Below are positions 10,189-17,590 of a stretch of DNA of 22,713 bases, in pieces (within the stretch, counting starts at the first letter, position 1; every line of letters begins with the position of its first letter). Source of the stretch: a virus; the IMG/VR virus record IMGVR_UViG_3300025030_000431, positions 1-22,713 of that record; one strand, given 5' to 3'. The position numbers and the translations under genes are program-made. The notes beneath the pieces are model-generated. The model worked only from the letters and a program-made list of their open reading frames with translations, searched no databases and had not been told where the DNA came from.

Positions 10189-10671
10189 TTACGGCTGGCC
10201 GCCCATCTCGGCGAGAACGTAGATATCCTGGACACCAACGGCCGCACAGTCGGCTCCGGCAATGGTCAGGATCAGGTACGCATCCTTCGGGAGGGTGACA
10301 GGCTTGGTACTGGTCGTCTTGCGAGCGGTCACGGCGCTGTCCATCGCCAAAGCGGTGGCGAAGAAGTCATCGTCCTGTGGGACGGCGGTGCTATCAACGC
10401 CATCGACATAGGCAAAGCCGACCTTGACCGTCACCTGGGCGGTGAAGGCGTCGGAGATGTACGACAGGTAATCGTACAGTTTCATGCCGGCCTTCAGGAC
10501 GCCCAACCGAATGATATCGGTCTGGACGACCTGGGTGGCGTCGTTGCTGTCGGTGAAGACTCCGTTCGCATCGACGGTGAGGTTGAAGGGGCCAATCACG
10601 GACAGGTTGCCGTAAGGCACCCCGCCGAAGTTGAATTTGTTGTTCACATTGTCTGCGGTAATGTTCGCCAT
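10189..10671 (-). CDS. Probable capsid decoration protein
   Basis: 160 residues, preceded by GGAGGAATTGAG. It begins MANITADNVNNKFNFGG and is predicted beta-rich, with few charged clusters and no signal peptide. It directly follows the major capsid gene, separated by 82 bases, the usual position of decoration or cement proteins. Segments such as YGNLSVIGPFNLTVDANG and FTDSNDATQVVQTDIIRLG, followed by a GMKLYDYLSYISDAF helix, are consistent with a small outer capsid protein binding to the capsomers. I recognise the context and general shape rather than a definite family. A head-fibre or minor head protein role remains possible. Confidence 0.7.
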   Translation of the reverse strand: MANITADNVNNKFNFGGVPYGNLSVIGPFNLTVDANGVFTDSNDATQVVQTDIIRLGVLKAGMKLYDYLSYISDAFTAQVTVKVGFAYVDGVDSTAVPQDDDFFATALAMDSAVTARKTTSTKPVTLPKDAYLILTIAGADCAAVGVQDIYVLAEMGGQP

Positions 10672-10753: not shown

Positions 10754-12022
10754 TTAAACGCCAAGCTCAACGGCAGAGTCGATCGCCATAATACCGAAGT
10801 CGGTATATTCTTCCTGGGTACCGTGATTGATCAGGAACCGGGTCTTGGATTTCCCGCCGACCATGCCGATCAGGACTTCCAGCTTGTCGCCGTGATCCAA
10901 TTCTTTCTCGGACCAGAAGAACGGGTTTCCGGTCTGCCGAGCCTTGCCGTATGCTTCAGCCAGGGCCTGGCCGCCGAGCAGGATCGCCCGGTCAACGGCA
11001 TGGGTCGTGGAGAAAGCGGCCGGAACCGTACCGGACGACTCGGTGGTCGAGGTCGCGCTGGCACAGTACAGCATGGCGTTGGTCGAATAGAACCGGATCG
11101 GTTTCGGCATCTTCACGATCAGGATACCGTTCCACAAGCCTGCCTCACCCATGAACAGCGGGTTGTTCTTGGCCATGGAAGCGCGGGCCATGGCGTTCGC
11201 CTGCCAGGTCCGGAAGTTGGTGGACTTGACGATCGATGTGTACTGTTCGCTAGAAACTCCCAGTACACGCATCGGGGCGTCGGTGGCCATCTGGTCGTCC
11301 GGGAACCGAACGGGCGGAGGAGGAAGAGGCATGCCGTCCAGCTTTGTCCGCAGCGCGTCTACCAGGTCGATGTTCATGATATCAGTGGTGGCGAAATCAA
11401 CATCGCCGCCGTTCAGGTTGATGTGCTCCAGGCCGGACCCGGTGGACATGAAATGCCGGTTGTAGGTCGGGGCCTTGACCGTGTTCACGCAGATGCTCGC
11501 AAAATCGGCATCGGACGCCAGGGGCACGGCCCACTCGATATCATTGGCGAACCCGCGCGCGCCTGCCATGTGAACGATACAGAGCTGGTCCTGCAGGCGG
11601 TCCATGTAGTTCTTGCCAAGGGCGCGGGCCAGGGACCGGAGCTGGTGCGGAGTCCGCTGCTGGGTCATGGAACCGCCGGCGGAGATCGGGTACCGGCACT
11701 GATTGATCCGGAGCGAGTCCTGGCTGAAGGTCATCGCCTGGCCGCGGCCTTCGGCGACCGCCTCGCCCATGATTGGCTTACCGCCCAAGGGGTTGATCAG
11801 GTCGAAGGTAACTTCATCGCCGGCGTTCTTCATCAGGTCCATGCACCGAACGATGGGCATCTCGTTGGAACTCTGGAAACGAAGATTGCTCTCGGCGTCG
11901 GACTGCTGCGGCAGTTTACCGGTAAGCCGGTTGATGATGGTGGGGCGCTGCATATTCGCAGCAAACAGCCCAGCGGACTGGATCTGTACCGCCTGCGGGG
12001 AACCGTAAGGAATCGTGGTCAT
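10754..12022 (-). CDS. Major capsid protein (N4 gp56 / DUF4043-type HK97 fold)
   Basis: 422 residues with a GGAG site before the ATG (upstream TTTTGGAGAAGAGCT). The segments FQSSNEMPIVRCMDLMKNAG, GDEVTFDLINPLGGKP, MGEAVAEGRGQAMTFSQDSL, RYPISAGGSMTQQRTPHQL and MDRLQDQLCIVHMAGARG follow the conserved order of the N4 gp56 / DUF4043 capsid family, which has the HK97 fold. The C-terminal part contains NPFFWSEKELDHGDKLEVLIGM and a final EEYTDFGIMAIDSAVELGV. Length is typical for the family. It forms the icosahedral shell around the scaffold encoded next to it. A processing protease is not seen in the window, so maturation is presumably autonomous or through a distant gene. The long open frame on the opposite strand here is a shadow. 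Confidence 0.85.
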   Translation of the reverse strand: MTTIPYGSPQAVQIQSAGLFAANMQRPTIINRLTGKLPQQSDAESNLRFQSSNEMPIVRCMDLMKNAGDEVTFDLINPLGGKPIMGEAVAEGRGQAMTFSQDSLRINQCRYPISAGGSMTQQRTPHQLRSLARALGKNYMDRLQDQLCIVHMAGARGFANDIEWAVPLASDADFASICVNTVKAPTYNRHFMSTGSGLEHINLNGGDVDFATTDIMNIDLVDALRTKLDGMPLPPPPVRFPDDQMATDAPMRVLGVSSEQYTSIVKSTNFRTWQANAMARASMAKNNPLFMGEAGLWNGILIVKMPKPIRFYSTNAMLYCASATSTTESSGTVPAAFSTTHAVDRAILLGGQALAEAYGKARQTGNPFFWSEKELDHGDKLEVLIGMVGGKSKTRFLINHGTQEEYTDFGIMAIDSAVELGV

Positions 12023-12049: not shown

Positions 12050-13051
12050 TTAAACAGCTTTCCGGAGGATCTCTTCGATCTGGTCCGGAGTCTTGCCCAT
12101 GAACGCATCGATCTGCTTCAGGGGGTTCCCGGCACTCATAATCGCATCTACCGGATTATGAGGGACCTGGGACCCGCCAGGAATCTCAGAAAGACTCGTC
12201 GGCACAGGACGTTTCGGTGCGGGAATTCCCGCGGCTGTTTGCCCATCGGCCTGTTTCCCCTGGCCCGCGGTATCGCCCGCGGGTGGCTGGTATCCAGTGG
12301 CTGCCTTGAAGGTGTCCAGCATTTTTATAATAGCGACATCATTGCCGCCTTTAATATCTTCGACATACGCTTTCTGCACGGCCGGTGATTGCGATTCGAT
12401 CCATGTCCCAAGTTCCTCACCGGCAATGATTGCGTCTAAATCACTATGGACCTTCCTGATCGAGTCAAAGTGCTCTTTCTTGTCGGCCTCAACCGCCTTC
12501 TCTTTGACTGGGGCAATATCCGATTTCAGGGTATTGATCTCCTCGGCCTGGGCCGCGATCTGGGCGGTGTAGAAACCCCGCTCCTTCGTGAGCATCGTTT
12601 CAAACGCCGTGACCAGGTCGGGGAACTCTTTCCGGACCTCGTCGAGGATCTCGTTCGTCTCCTCCTGGGTGGCGGTCCCTTCTACCTGGGCGTTCTGGGC
12701 GGTGGCCATTTTATCCATCGCCGCCTGAAGTTCAGCGTTCTTGCTGATCTGCTCTTCGAGCGCGGTACGGGCTGAACTTGCCTCGACCCGTGCCTCGACC
12801 AGCTTCTCATACGGGATGGTATGCACCCCATCCTTGGCCATGATCACCGGCTCTTTTTCCGGAACGGCCGCCGGTTCTGCCGGGACGACTTCTTTCATCG
12901 GTTCCGGCTGCGCCTCTTCTTCGGGAACTGCCTCTTGTTCCGCCTCGACCGCCGGGAGCTCGCCGCCAAGCAGTAACCCGGCCATCTTCTCCGGGGGGAT
13001 CACGCCGTCAACTTGGTTCGCTTCAAAATATTCCAGATCAGTAGTTTCCAT
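12050..13051 (-). CDS. Capsid scaffolding protein
   Basis: 333 residues from the ATG at 13051, chosen because AGGAGGACAGG precedes it; a longer frame from 13069 lacks such a site. It has an acidic N-terminal tail (VEAEQEAVPEEEAQPEPM), a conserved DGVHTIPYEKLVEARVEAS motif (residues 74-92) typical of phage scaffolds, a long coiled coil (about 85-200), and a Pro/Gly-rich linker before a C-terminal helical capsid-binding end (QIDAFMGKTPDQIEEILRK). Scaffold proteins organise capsid subunits during assembly and leave before DNA packaging. The major capsid gene follows within 27 bases. No protease domain is fused to it. A promoter candidate lies about 60 bases upstream. Confidence 0.8.
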   Translation of the reverse strand: METTDLEYFEANQVDGVIPPEKMAGLLLGGELPAVEAEQEAVPEEEAQPEPMKEVVPAEPAAVPEKEPVIMAKDGVHTIPYEKLVEARVEASSARTALEEQISKNAELQAAMDKMATAQNAQVEGTATQEETNEILDEVRKEFPDLVTAFETMLTKERGFYTAQIAAQAEEINTLKSDIAPVKEKAVEADKKEHFDSIRKVHSDLDAIIAGEELGTWIESQSPAVQKAYVEDIKGGNDVAIIKMLDTFKAATGYQPPAGDTAGQGKQADGQTAAGIPAPKRPVPTSLSEIPGGSQVPHNPVDAIMSAGNPLKQIDAFMGKTPDQIEEILRKAV

Positions 13052-13108
13052 CCTGTCCTCCTGCCACATATCGCCGTGGCCGCTTTAAGAGAACTACGCT
13101 CTATCGGC

Positions 13109-13172: not shown

Positions 13173-13388
13173 TCAAAAGAACTTCTGGTATTTCCTGCCG
13201 CCAATGGCCGGGCGCATGTACCCGCCCTTGCTCCGACCCTGCGGGAAAGTGCTGGCGACCGTAGTCAGAATCACCGGCCAGGCCGTTCCCTTGCAGTCTG
13301 GGCACTCAATGCTCGTTGGTTTGTCGGCCAGCTTGCATTCATGCTCCATTACTTTCCTGCATCTGATGCACTCGTAGTCGTATTTCAT
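13173..13388 (-). CDS. FmdB-like zinc-ribbon protein
   Basis: 71 residues. The start overlaps the stop of the upstream gene (ATGA at 13388-13385), so translation is coupled. The sequence MKYDYECIRCRKVMEHECKL, then ECPDCKGTAWPVI, carries two CxxC pairs at residues 7 and 10 and again at 29 and 32, in the arrangement of FmdB-type zinc ribbons. These bind one zinc ion and are widespread in bacteria and phages, usually with unknown function. The basic Gly-rich C-terminus (GRSKGGYMRPAIGGRKYQ) could bind nucleic acid. It lies within the head assembly operon, between the signal-peptide fibre gene and the scaffold. Similar proteins commonly occur beside phage scaffold genes. Its function is not known to me. 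Confidence 0.75.
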   Translation of the reverse strand: MKYDYECIRCRKVMEHECKLADKPTSIECPDCKGTAWPVILTTVASTFPQGRSKGGYMRPAIGGRKYQKFF

Positions 13389-14166: not shown

Positions 14167-15225
14167 TTACTGCATGAACTTCCAGTCGATCACAACCGTT
14201 CCGGCAATGTCACCGGTCAGATCAGCGCCGGCCGTGTTGCCCCATGTCGAGCAAATGTTCCAGTGGACCAAATGCGATCCGGCGGTAGCGAGGACAACGG
14301 GCGTCCCGGCCCCAACGGCAACGGTAAGAACGTCAGGAGTCCCGGCCATATCGGCGGTAGTGATCGGACCAAGCAGGTCTTCGAGTCCGGCGGCGTCAGC
14401 GCCACACGTAGCAGCGGCTGCAGAACCAAGCACGGTGCCGACGCAACCTTCAGCGGCAGCATTTGCCGAATCCTCTGCCAGCGTGGTGGCCATGGACACT
14501 GAGACGTTCTCAACAATGATCTCGCCGGCCGGGAAGGTGTAGAGCAGATACCCGTCGCACAGGGCGGCATTGTCGGCAACGGTAACGGCATCGGCCTGGC
14601 TTACGGTCAGCACGGTGTGGTGCTGGTAGCCATCGCCATACTCAACGGCTGTCACGCCGGTATTCACAGCGCCAATATTGCTGATGTTCCGGAGGTCGCC
14701 GCCTGAATCGAGGATCGCGGCTTTCCCAGCGGCCGGGACGGTGGCGCTTGACCCGTCCAAAAGGTTCAACTCGGCAGCTGTGGAGCCAAGCGTGGTTCCA
14801 ACCGGGTCCCTCAGCACGCCATAAGTCAAAATTCCGGTAGCCGGCCAGGTATAATCTTCACCCGTGTCAAGGACAACGGCCTTGCTCGCTGCGCCCGTAC
14901 CGAGAGCGGTGATATCCAGATAGCTTAACTCGGCGGCAGTAGCCGTCATCCCGTCTACCTTATTGATCTCCGCTCCGGTCGCCGTTACCTCGGTCACGGT
15001 GAACACGCCCGAATTGGTCTGATACCAGCCAATCACCTCTTCGCTCACGATCTTGGTGTCGCCGTTTGCCCAGTCAACATCCTGGCCCAGCCGAACCGGG
15101 CCACGCGCTCCATCGCCGGAATACGTCACCCAATAGTCAGCAAACGCCGGAACTGATCCGACAACCAGCAACACCAGGGCCGCGAAAAGGATTACCCATC
15201 GTCGGCCAAACACGTTCTTTTTCAT
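14167..15225 (-). CDS. Fibre-like structural protein with Sec-type signal peptide
   Basis: 352 residues with GGAG before the ATG. Residues 1-29 form a classic signal peptide: a basic start (KKNVFGRR), a hydrophobic core (WVILFAALVLLVVGSV) and an AFA cleavage site with probable cut before DYWVTYSGDG. The mature part has three TAAELNxLDG-type repeats (GAEINKVDG at about 84, TAAELSYLD at about 96, TAAELNLLDG at about 149). Such repeats are known in phage fibre and head-decoration proteins. The C-terminal 160 residues form a Gly/Ala-rich beta domain (TVLTVSQADAVTV, LLYTFPAGEIIVENVSVS, HWNICSTW) with four cysteines. Virion proteins normally assemble in the cytoplasm, so export is odd. It could be a secreted virus product, a decoration protein with an unusual anchor, or a surface protein altering the host. 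Confidence 0.75.
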   Translation of the reverse strand: MKKNVFGRRWVILFAALVLLVVGSVPAFADYWVTYSGDGARGPVRLGQDVDWANGDTKIVSEEVIGWYQTNSGVFTVTEVTATGAEINKVDGMTATAAELSYLDITALGTGAASKAVVLDTGEDYTWPATGILTYGVLRDPVGTTLGSTAAELNLLDGSSATVPAAGKAAILDSGGDLRNISNIGAVNTGVTAVEYGDGYQHHTVLTVSQADAVTVADNAALCDGYLLYTFPAGEIIVENVSVSMATTLAEDSANAAAEGCVGTVLGSAAAATCGADAAGLEDLLGPITTADMAGTPDVLTVAVGAGTPVVLATAGSHLVHWNICSTWGNTAGADLTGDIAGTVVIDWKFMQ

Positions 15226-15255
15226 TTTTCTTCTCCTGCTGTGTTTTATTGGCCG

Positions 15256-15384
15256 CTATTGGCCGTCCCGCTTGTCGGCGGATTTTCTGTATTTTTCAAC
15301 TCGCTTGAGGCCTCGTTTCACCTGGTCAATATCCAGGCCCAGTGCGAATATCGCCACCAGTAAAGTGCTGTATCTCTTAACCAT
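15256..15384 (-). CDS. 42-residue protein of unknown function
   Basis: The ATG at 15384 has a GGAGGGGG site a few bases upstream and overlaps the last eight bases of the portal gene in another frame. The protein (MVKRYSTLLVAIFALGLDID, then a basic helix with QVKRGLKRVEKYRKSADKR) has a short hydrophobic stretch of about 13 residues, too short for a sure membrane span, and a strongly basic amphipathic end. A longer frame from 15516 lies inside the portal gene and lacks a ribosome binding site. It is possibly a small membrane-associated or DNA-binding virion protein. No family is recognised. Confidence 0.55.
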   Translation of the reverse strand: MVKRYSTLLVAIFALGLDIDQVKRGLKRVEKYRKSADKRDGQ

Positions 15385-17590
15385 TCCCCCCCTCCACGCC
15401 GGCCAACAGACCGGAATCCGGTTCTGCCATCGCCTCGGCCGGGACCGGGGCGGGCGGGGCAAGTCCACCAGGTTCACCAGGGCGGGCCGGGAACATCGGG
15501 CTGGTATTTTCAGCAACAGGCGTGGCGGGCATGGTCGGGCCGGCGACGATGGGCGCCTGGTCCTGGTCGTTGAACCCGGCCGACTTCAAGACCTGGTCGG
15601 CGGCCGGAGCCACCCCGGGTGCAGCTACTATCTGGGTCCCGGCCTGGACTGCGGCGAAGATTGCCTCGATCCGCTTGTTGATGATATCGGTGATCATCTT
15701 CTCTTTCTGGGTATCCTTGTACCCTTCGTCCATCTCCAGCTTGCGGAGCTTCAGCTCGTACTGATCTTTGATCCTGGCCTGTTCGACCGCGGCGTCGACC
15801 AGCTGCTGAATCTCTTCCTCACTGGGGACGGTGGCCATCTTGCGCAGCCCTTCGACCAGTTCTTTCTTCACGTCATACGGAAGATTCATCAGGGAAACGA
15901 GATGCGGCATGGCGAGCGCCTGGAACTGGGGTGGCATCGACTTGAACGCCTCGGACATCGACACCAATTCCTGAGCCCTGAAGGACGGAGTAGATGGAAC
16001 ATCCGAGATGGTCACGTTCAGTTTGATCCGCTCTGTATCGTTGTTCAGGTACAATTCACCGGGTACTTTCTGGTTCAGGATAATTGTCCGGTCCTCTTTG
16101 ATCAGACCTCCATCGACGGTGACGGGCGTCTCTTCGTTGCCGATATCCTCGATGATCATGGAAAGAATAGCTTCGCCAACCCGTGACCGACCCTCGGAAA
16201 AGTTGTCGTTGATATCACCCAGGGCCTGAACGGTCTGCTCAACAAGCTGGCTGATCGCGGATCCGGACCGACCTTGGGCATCGTTGCCGCCAAACACTTC
16301 GGAAATCCGGCCGGCCCGGCGAATCGATTCCCTGGCTTCCCGGAGTCTGGCGGCCTGCTGCTCGTTCAGTTGGAAATCCTTCTCGATCTTGAATATCCCG
16401 TCATTGGCCATGGCCTCGGCGTTCAAAAGGATATCCGAATCCGGCCGAGATACCTCGTCACGGAAGGTATCGTCATCGTCAACAACTGCCCCTTCGGTCC
16501 TGATCACCCGGACGGAAGAGAGGCCCCACTGCATCTTGGCCACCCGAACATTGATTTCGTCCTGCAGGAACATCATTCCCCGGGCCAAGCCGTAAGGAAC
16601 CCGGGTCCGGTCTTCACGCTTGCCCCAGAACGGGAAATAAGGGAAATGGTTATGCTTATAGGGTGAAGGGATGTCATGCAAAAGGTGGGGCCCGGCGAAC
16701 CAGGCGAGGCGAACCTTGCCGACAACCGATTCGATCAGTTCCCCACCATTGGCCAGGGCCACGAGATGAAGGGCGTTCTGCTCATCGAACTCGACAACCC
16801 GACCGCCCCTGACTTTCAAAGCGGTGACAGCTTCAAACTTCCGGTACCAGAGTTCAAAAAGACAGATCCGCCCGTTCAGGGCATCTCGCCATTCCTGTTC
16901 TTCCCAGGTAAACGATCTCTCATCGGTCCAGTTCTTATAAAGCCCGGTCTGCTGGCCGCCCTCCATGTACTGAGTGGCGTCATAAGCGGACATCCCGTTG
17001 CCGGCCGCCTTGATCGTCTCTGCCTGGTCCGGGAACATGGCCGTGGCGATATCGATATCAGTCCATCGACGCCGAAGGAGCCAACGCGCATCCGAAATAT
17101 CATCTTTCCGGGAAAACCAATCGTGCCAAATTTCGTTGCGGTGAACATCTGTGCAGCGGATCGGGAACTGAAACGGATCCGAGGACCGGGAAACCTCCAC
17201 CCAACCCAAGCCAACCTTTACCTGCGAAGCATACGCCGCGGCGCAGGCCCGGTCAGCCTTCGATCTCCGCTCCGCCTGGTTCAACCGGTAGTTCAGGGCT
17301 TCCGCTACATCGTCACCCTCACCCACTTTGTCAGGCAAAACCCGGAAATCAGATCGGTTCTTCGCCTCCATCCCCAGGATTTCGTCAATCGTCGGCCCCA
17401 TGACCGGCTCAATCGCCGGCGGGATCCCGAGAAGCCGCTGCTTATAGAGTGCGTCGGAATCAAGCTGGTTCCCGTCGCAATAATCCATCTCCTTGTCAGC
17501 GTTCGCCCGCCAGATAGGTTGCTCATCAATCTCAAGAGCGATGGCGTTCAGCAAATTGTTCGGGGTGAAGTCGCCTTGCCGCAGATTCAT
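15377..17590 (-). CDS. Portal protein (P22-type)
   Basis: 737 residues, start overlapping the TerL stop (ATGA at 17590-17587) with GGAGG upstream. The N-terminus (ANADKEMDYCDGNQLDSDAL, then PAIEPVMGPTIDEILGMEAK, RSDFRVLPDK) follows the order of P22-like portals: a helical entry, a QLD segment, the linking INPTV-like region and an R-D-F-x-V-x-P motif. Further parts include GLGWVEVSRSSDPF and FPYFPFWGKREDRTRVPYGL, the wing/stem segment. A long helical region (about 590-660: EEEIQQLVDAAVEQARIKDQ and following) could form the extended barrel seen in P22, and the tail is Pro-rich (PGGLAPPAPVPAEAM). The dodecameric ring sits at one vertex, carries the terminase during packaging, and joins the adaptor. 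Size matches P22 (725). Confidence 0.8.
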   Translation of the reverse strand: MNLRQGDFTPNNLLNAIALEIDEQPIWRANADKEMDYCDGNQLDSDALYKQRLLGIPPAIEPVMGPTIDEILGMEAKNRSDFRVLPDKVGEGDDVAEALNYRLNQAERRSKADRACAAAYASQVKVGLGWVEVSRSSDPFQFPIRCTDVHRNEIWHDWFSRKDDISDARWLLRRRWTDIDIATAMFPDQAETIKAAGNGMSAYDATQYMEGGQQTGLYKNWTDERSFTWEEQEWRDALNGRICLFELWYRKFEAVTALKVRGGRVVEFDEQNALHLVALANGGELIESVVGKVRLAWFAGPHLLHDIPSPYKHNHFPYFPFWGKREDRTRVPYGLARGMMFLQDEINVRVAKMQWGLSSVRVIRTEGAVVDDDDTFRDEVSRPDSDILLNAEAMANDGIFKIEKDFQLNEQQAARLREARESIRRAGRISEVFGGNDAQGRSGSAISQLVEQTVQALGDINDNFSEGRSRVGEAILSMIIEDIGNEETPVTVDGGLIKEDRTIILNQKVPGELYLNNDTERIKLNVTISDVPSTPSFRAQELVSMSEAFKSMPPQFQALAMPHLVSLMNLPYDVKKELVEGLRKMATVPSEEEIQQLVDAAVEQARIKDQYELKLRKLEMDEGYKDTQKEKMITDIINKRIEAIFAAVQAGTQIVAAPGVAPAADQVLKSAGFNDQDQAPIVAGPTMPATPVAENTSPMFPARPGEPGGLAPPAPVPAEAMAEPDSGLLAGVEGGNG

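Follow-up and report, generated by a model that had tools for sequence, protein, structure and literature searches.

A predicted export signal on a fibre-like protein with a decoration-type domain, encoded in the head operon of an uncultured short-tailed-type phage

Assembly of tailed-phage head proteins is assumed to take place in the cytoplasm, and a head operon gene whose product opens with an apparent Sec signal peptide raises the question of what an exported protein would do there. Such a gene, coding for 352 amino acids, was analysed in a stretch of 22,713 nucleotides (IMG/VR record IMGVR_UViG_3300025030_000431, positions 1 to 22,713), hereafter called the window, which is a virus record and a fragment of a short-tailed-type phage. 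The operon runs from the terminase genes through a P22-type portal gene, the 352-aa gene, two small genes and a scaffold-position gene to a capsid gene of the PF13252 type, and continues past it with a phrog_8260 head structural protein, an SU10-type adaptor and an Hc3 head closure protein. The features of the locus are as follows.

15377..17590, minus strand, P22-type portal protein (profile match, E 4e-97)
15233..15237, minus strand, Shine-Dalgarno sequence AGGAG, 7 nt ahead of the ATG of the 352-aa gene
14167..15225, minus strand (15225→14167), coding sequence of the predicted exported, fibre-like protein, 352 aa, stop codon included
12050..13069, minus strand, scaffold-position protein (phrog_479)
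10754..12022, minus strand, major capsid protein (PF13252, E 2e-137; homologous to the major capsid protein of PDB 8h89_A, E 2e-25)
10189..10671, minus strand, candidate head structural or cement protein without a signal peptide (phrog_8260), directly 3' of the capsid gene

The sequence of the phrog_8260 protein opens with MANITADNVNNKFNFGG, and its counterpart at the same position in the relative H66 is annotated as verified in virions by mass spectrometry. The earlier note had placed the 352-aa gene between portal and scaffold, which holds with the addition that two genes, coding for 242 and 71 amino acids, precede the scaffold gene. The 71-aa protein (13173-13388, minus strand) has two CxxC pairs and bears what we take to be a resemblance to FmdB-type zinc ribbons. 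A small hydrophobic ORF (MVKRYSTLLVAIFALGLDIDQVKRG..., 15256-15384, minus strand) overlaps the portal stop codon, and its start is conserved in the near relatives L003 and L004. Profile searches with the 352-aa protein found no match in Pfam or among PHROGs of known function, the sole match being phrog_30158, of unknown function (E 1e-4). The protein itself was divided into the following parts.

15139..15225, minus strand, Sec/SPase I signal peptide, aa 1-29, MKKNVFGRRWVILFAALVLLVVGSVPAFA followed by DYW (rule-based prediction)
14986..15138, minus strand, conserved mature N-module, aa 30-80, which persists when the C-terminal body changes (dN/dS about 0.12-0.14)
14950..14985, minus strand, repeat 1, TATGAEINKVDG, aa 81-92
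14911..14946, minus strand, repeat 2, TATAAELSYLDI, aa 94-105
14752..14781, minus strand, repeat 3, TAAELNLLDG, aa 149-158
14170..14688, minus strand, predicted C-terminal beta-sandwich domain of an undescribed head-operon family, aa 180-352, with cysteines 223, 261, 274 and 325

The signal peptide, described in the earlier note as residues 1-29 with an AFA cleavage site, bore out that description under the strict n-h-c rule by which signal peptides were called throughout. It has a positively charged n-region, an uncharged h-region (9-mer mean hydropathy 3.41) and small residues at -3 and -1, with the cleavage site AFA/D after residue 29; the 352-aa gene was the only one of the 23 ORFs of the window to pass the rule. 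A start further inside the gene was considered as well. The next internal methionine is residue 93, so an ATG start that skipped the signal would remove the whole conserved N-module, and the AGGAG site stands at the annotated start. A search for homologues lacking the hydrophobic start returned none among the true orthologues, the signal being kept in L003, L005 and L006. The L006 version has one extra residue in the h-region, with the n-h-c pattern and the AFA site unchanged, and comparison with the window gave dS 0.40, dN 0.13 and a dN/dS of about 0.33 over the signal peptide. The signal thus looks genuine, and a Sec signal peptide with predicted cleavage after AFA is supported. The h-region, by its length and strong hydrophobicity, could also be that of an uncleaved signal anchor, which would leave the protein fixed in the inner membrane and its body facing the periplasm, for instance as a membrane factor related to lysis or entry. 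This we regard as improbable, since the canonical AFA/D site is present in all orthologues despite the insertion in the h-region of L006, and the profile searches turned up neither a lysis nor an enzyme domain.

The mature protein has the build of a phage fibre. Three TAAELNxLDG-type repeats had been claimed for it; they are present as AELN-LDG units, albeit imperfect ones, and a second repeated unit (AASKAVVLDTGED/AAGKAAILDSGGD) occurs at residues 112 and 165. The whole protein is retained, with 98-100 % identity, in L002-L004, while L005 and L006 (455 and 460 aa) have the same signal peptide and N-module joined to a different C-terminal body. The capsid protein of L005 is 100 % identical to that of the window; L006 is more distant, with identities of 62 % for the capsid, 56 % for the portal and 37 % for the scaffold protein, compared with 82 % for the signal peptide and the next approximately 60 residues. 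The foreign bodies of L005 and L006 are nevertheless 96 % identical to each other over 291 residues, which indicates that recombination exchanged the body and left the exported N-terminus in place. A conserved N-terminus carrying an exchangeable C-terminal body, as in phage fibres, was thus found. No other relatives of the alternative body were found, nor was the N-module found in the bacterial genomes searched. Over the N-module, the comparison of the window with L006 gave dS 1.2 and dN 0.14, and judged by dN/dS both signal peptide and N-module look to be held by purifying selection. L003 and L004 also have a methyltransferase-like ORF (L003:3407-3889, L004:7201-7683), absent from the window, that separates the portal gene from the exported gene; in Klebsiella phage SopranoGao a DNA methyltransferase is annotated between the terminase and portal genes.

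Residues 180-352 (173 aa) define an undescribed family. One scan of viral contigs yielded 80 loci that were kept, and clustering reduced these to 67 non-redundant proteins, all from uncultured phages; none was found in 50,697 isolate phage records. The genome collection contained a single match, on a 42-kb contig binned as Bacteroidetes, and so narrow a basis was not used to assign a host. The next gene upstream, scanned in 53 members, most commonly coded for a major head protein (phrog_283 by itself accounting for eight), a head maturation protease, a portal or a head-tail adaptor. The two closest relatives of the window domain (L088/L089 and L097) lie directly 3' of a capsid gene, confirmed by profile in L097 and assigned from position and length in L089, and have no signal peptide. 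The genes of the family are thus mostly found in head operons, often beside the capsid gene, the typical place for decoration and cement proteins; the window gene itself lies between portal and scaffold.

The predicted structure of residues 180-352 is a beta-sandwich of mostly good confidence (pLDDT 63-97 in 10-residue blocks), and residues 59-169 are mostly of low confidence in the monomer model. No PDB match with E below 0.001 was found in the fold search; the match with the best probability was a weak one to a chain of the cyanophage Pam1 capsid (7eel_H; prob 1.00, TM 0.52 by target, E 8e-3, rmsd 5.2, 17 % identity), and the best match in BFVD was an uncharacterised protein of an uncultured phage. 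Searches of Pfam and PHROG and a profile search of PDB sequences found no known decoration protein with sequence homology. Given the weak fold match and the published descriptions of Ig-like cement proteins, the domain is called decoration-type here, which is short of a proven decoration protein.

Signal peptides were found in eight of the 67 family members (the window group, L014, L049, L070, L072, L083, L085 and L086). The 59 members without one could suggest that the hydrophobic start of the window protein is a chance, non-functional feature of an ordinary cytoplasmic head protein. This reading, already disfavoured by the single pass among the window ORFs and by the conservation of the signal, is very unlikely, as export signals also recur elsewhere in the family with different sequences. 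The domain tree requires four changes in signal peptide state, at least three of them forced by supported branches, and the lineages have signal sequences that are unrelated to one another. Signal-like starts are more frequent in the family than among the other genes of the loci retrieved (Fisher p 0.001; the background count was approximate and relatedness was left uncorrected). A single capsid-type domain thus appears to have received different export signals in unrelated phages.

Some of the exported members stand close to the coat gene. In L070, L083, L085 and L086 a phrog_283 coat gene immediately precedes the exported gene, and in L072, L083, L085 and L086 the exported gene is followed by a second, signal-less copy of the domain. 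A related set of proteins, likewise encoded directly 3' of P22-type coat genes, combines a signal peptide with an N-domain containing two cysteines and a variable C-terminus. In L116, L118, L120 and L125 this P22-group N-domain, with its two cysteines invariant, is joined to other C-termini; signal peptides are present, and the genes are directly 3' of phrog_283 coat genes. All proteins matching the N-domain profile have a signal peptide except that of L119, which looks frameshifted. The signal region varies freely in the alignment of this set while the mature start QT-L is fixed, the pattern expected of a working signal peptide, and this lineage too argues against an uncleaved anchor. The N-domain gave weak matches to phage tail-protein profiles, and a fold search with the model of L085 gave loose beta-sandwich matches only.

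Exported family members are richer in cysteine than the others (Mann-Whitney p 0.001-0.002), with the invariant pairs C114/C136 and C226/C300 in the P22 group and a single cysteine in each of L014 and L049. As proof of disulfides the enrichment was rejected, too few independent pairs differing on the tree for significance, and as a sign of disulfides it is suggestive only.

Further signal peptides were observed around these genes. A second signal-peptide gene, of 221 aa, lies directly behind the exported N-domain gene in L118 (L118:6198-6863, equal to L134:4701-5366), and a contig that also carries the domain codes for an endolysin-like protein with a signal peptide (L080:4639-5178). Other domain-carrying uncultured phages (regions L040:6494-9472, L058:9184-11360 and L092:5294-12301) have signal peptides on further structural-type proteins, namely a 731-aa tail-like, a 606-aa tail-spike-like and an 822-aa tail-fibre-like protein, as well as on small exported proteins encoded beside them and on a LamG-lectin protein. 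Exported fibre-type proteins may extend beyond the C-terminal domain family.

Isolate phages were examined for comparison. The gene behind the capsid gene and the genes examined in the portal-scaffold slot failed the signal-peptide rule in 15 isolates with either capsid type, and the C-terminal domain was not found in the same 15; no match to the window protein, the C-terminal domain, the exported P22-group protein or its N-domain was found in isolate phages. Isolates related to the window phage have unrelated accessory genes or none in the portal-scaffold slot: a membrane protein is encoded there in H66, and genes annotated as Thoeris anti-defence and endolysin in Vibrio phage 1F273_PE002 (L128:3216-4567). 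In the capsid lineage of the window the slot has the look of an accessory hotspot, and the virion-related role that had been proposed from position is therefore weakly argued by position alone. A stronger argument comes from the C-terminal domain, which many unrelated phages encode in their head operons, often just 3' of the capsid gene.

The same observations fit an accessory cargo gene (moron), the product of which, derived from a decoration domain, would be secreted or bound to the surface and act on the host or on other phages, for instance in receptor masking, superinfection exclusion, adhesion or as a decoy, and never join the virion. Cargo of this kind fits the slot of the window, with its membrane protein, anti-defence genes or empty gap in relatives and the extra methyltransferase-like gene inserted in L003 and L004; moreover, an export signal would take the protein away from assembly, and the head is already supplied with a cement candidate. 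Set against this, the relatives of the C-terminal domain are head-operon genes, often adjoining the capsid gene, and the exported gene of the P22-coat group lies directly 3' of the coat gene, outside the cargo slot. Secreted cargo is nearly as likely as the reading we favour, although it too falls below an even chance.

The favoured reading, held with a confidence somewhat short of even, is that the 352-aa protein is a fibre derived from head decoration, exported by Sec, folded outside the cytoplasm and joined to virions at lysis. The signal peptide is predicted, from sequence and comparison, to be cleaved after AFA; the mature protein, consisting of N-module, AELN-LDG repeats and C-terminal beta-sandwich, would fold outside the cytoplasm and first meet finished capsids upon cell lysis, where one end would bind the capsid and the exchangeable tip would be displayed. 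The same solution would have arisen separately in other uncultured phages, in some of them directly behind a P22-type coat gene. A Sec-type signal, selection on it, a modular body and membership of a head-operon family are supported by the sequence comparisons, and we infer from them export, extracytoplasmic folding and attachment at lysis. The ordinary cement candidate behind the capsid gene, the non-virion cargo in the slot of isolates and the many domain relatives that manage without export speak against the favoured reading. Of the alternatives offered in the earlier note (a secreted surface or decoy protein, an anchor of virions or receptors, or a decoration protein loaded outside the cytoplasm), the export signal and the fibre or decoration character are backed, and the interpretation as a whole is partly supported.

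More generally, it seems that in some phages a coat-type protein is exported from the cytoplasm, the site of coat building. It is a tentative and rather doubtful extension that several tailed-phage lineages make virions in two compartments, with capsids built in the cytoplasm and a Sec-exported, disulfide-bearing decoration or head fibre added at lysis, a trait absent from the isolates examined. Recurrent export of a head-operon domain would, if true, imply either the completion of virions outside the cytoplasm or the re-use of coat domains as secreted proteins, and would add to structural operons a class of exported proteins at present overlooked by annotation.

Decoration proteins and exported phage proteins are each known. 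The open-access papers searched contained no head-operon domain of decoration type with recurring export signals, nor any description of signal peptides on head decoration proteins of tailed phages. AELN-LDG repeats occur in many cyanophage structural proteins, and the window protein shares this repeat type, which assigns no role by itself. Lambda Lom and N15 Cor are exported morons with a signal peptide, encoded in structural operons, and are outer-membrane proteins or lipoproteins; the window protein differs in that it lacks a lipobox and contains a domain of decoration type. Phage L Dec, lambda gpD and T4 Hoc and Soc are accessory head proteins with folds different from that of the window domain, and we know of no export signal on any of them. 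To our knowledge none is present either on the Ig-like cement proteins of Pam1 and GP4 as reported. A word search of a review of decoration proteins (PMC7602432) found no mention of export, secretion or periplasm. Mature P22 virions take up purified Dec in vitro (PMC6449081), and this binding to finished virions makes late attachment physically reasonable. The cement proteins of Pam1 and of the Ralstonia phage GP4 (gp1) have been described as Ig-like trimers on the capsid (PMC9698820). There is no detectable sequence homology between these and the window protein, which starts with a signal peptide and a long N-terminal part bearing repeats, and the fold match is weak; the likeness to Pam1 (7eel_H) and GP4 gp1 lies in a predicted beta-sandwich of similar size and in the location of the window family's genes in head operons, often beside the capsid gene.
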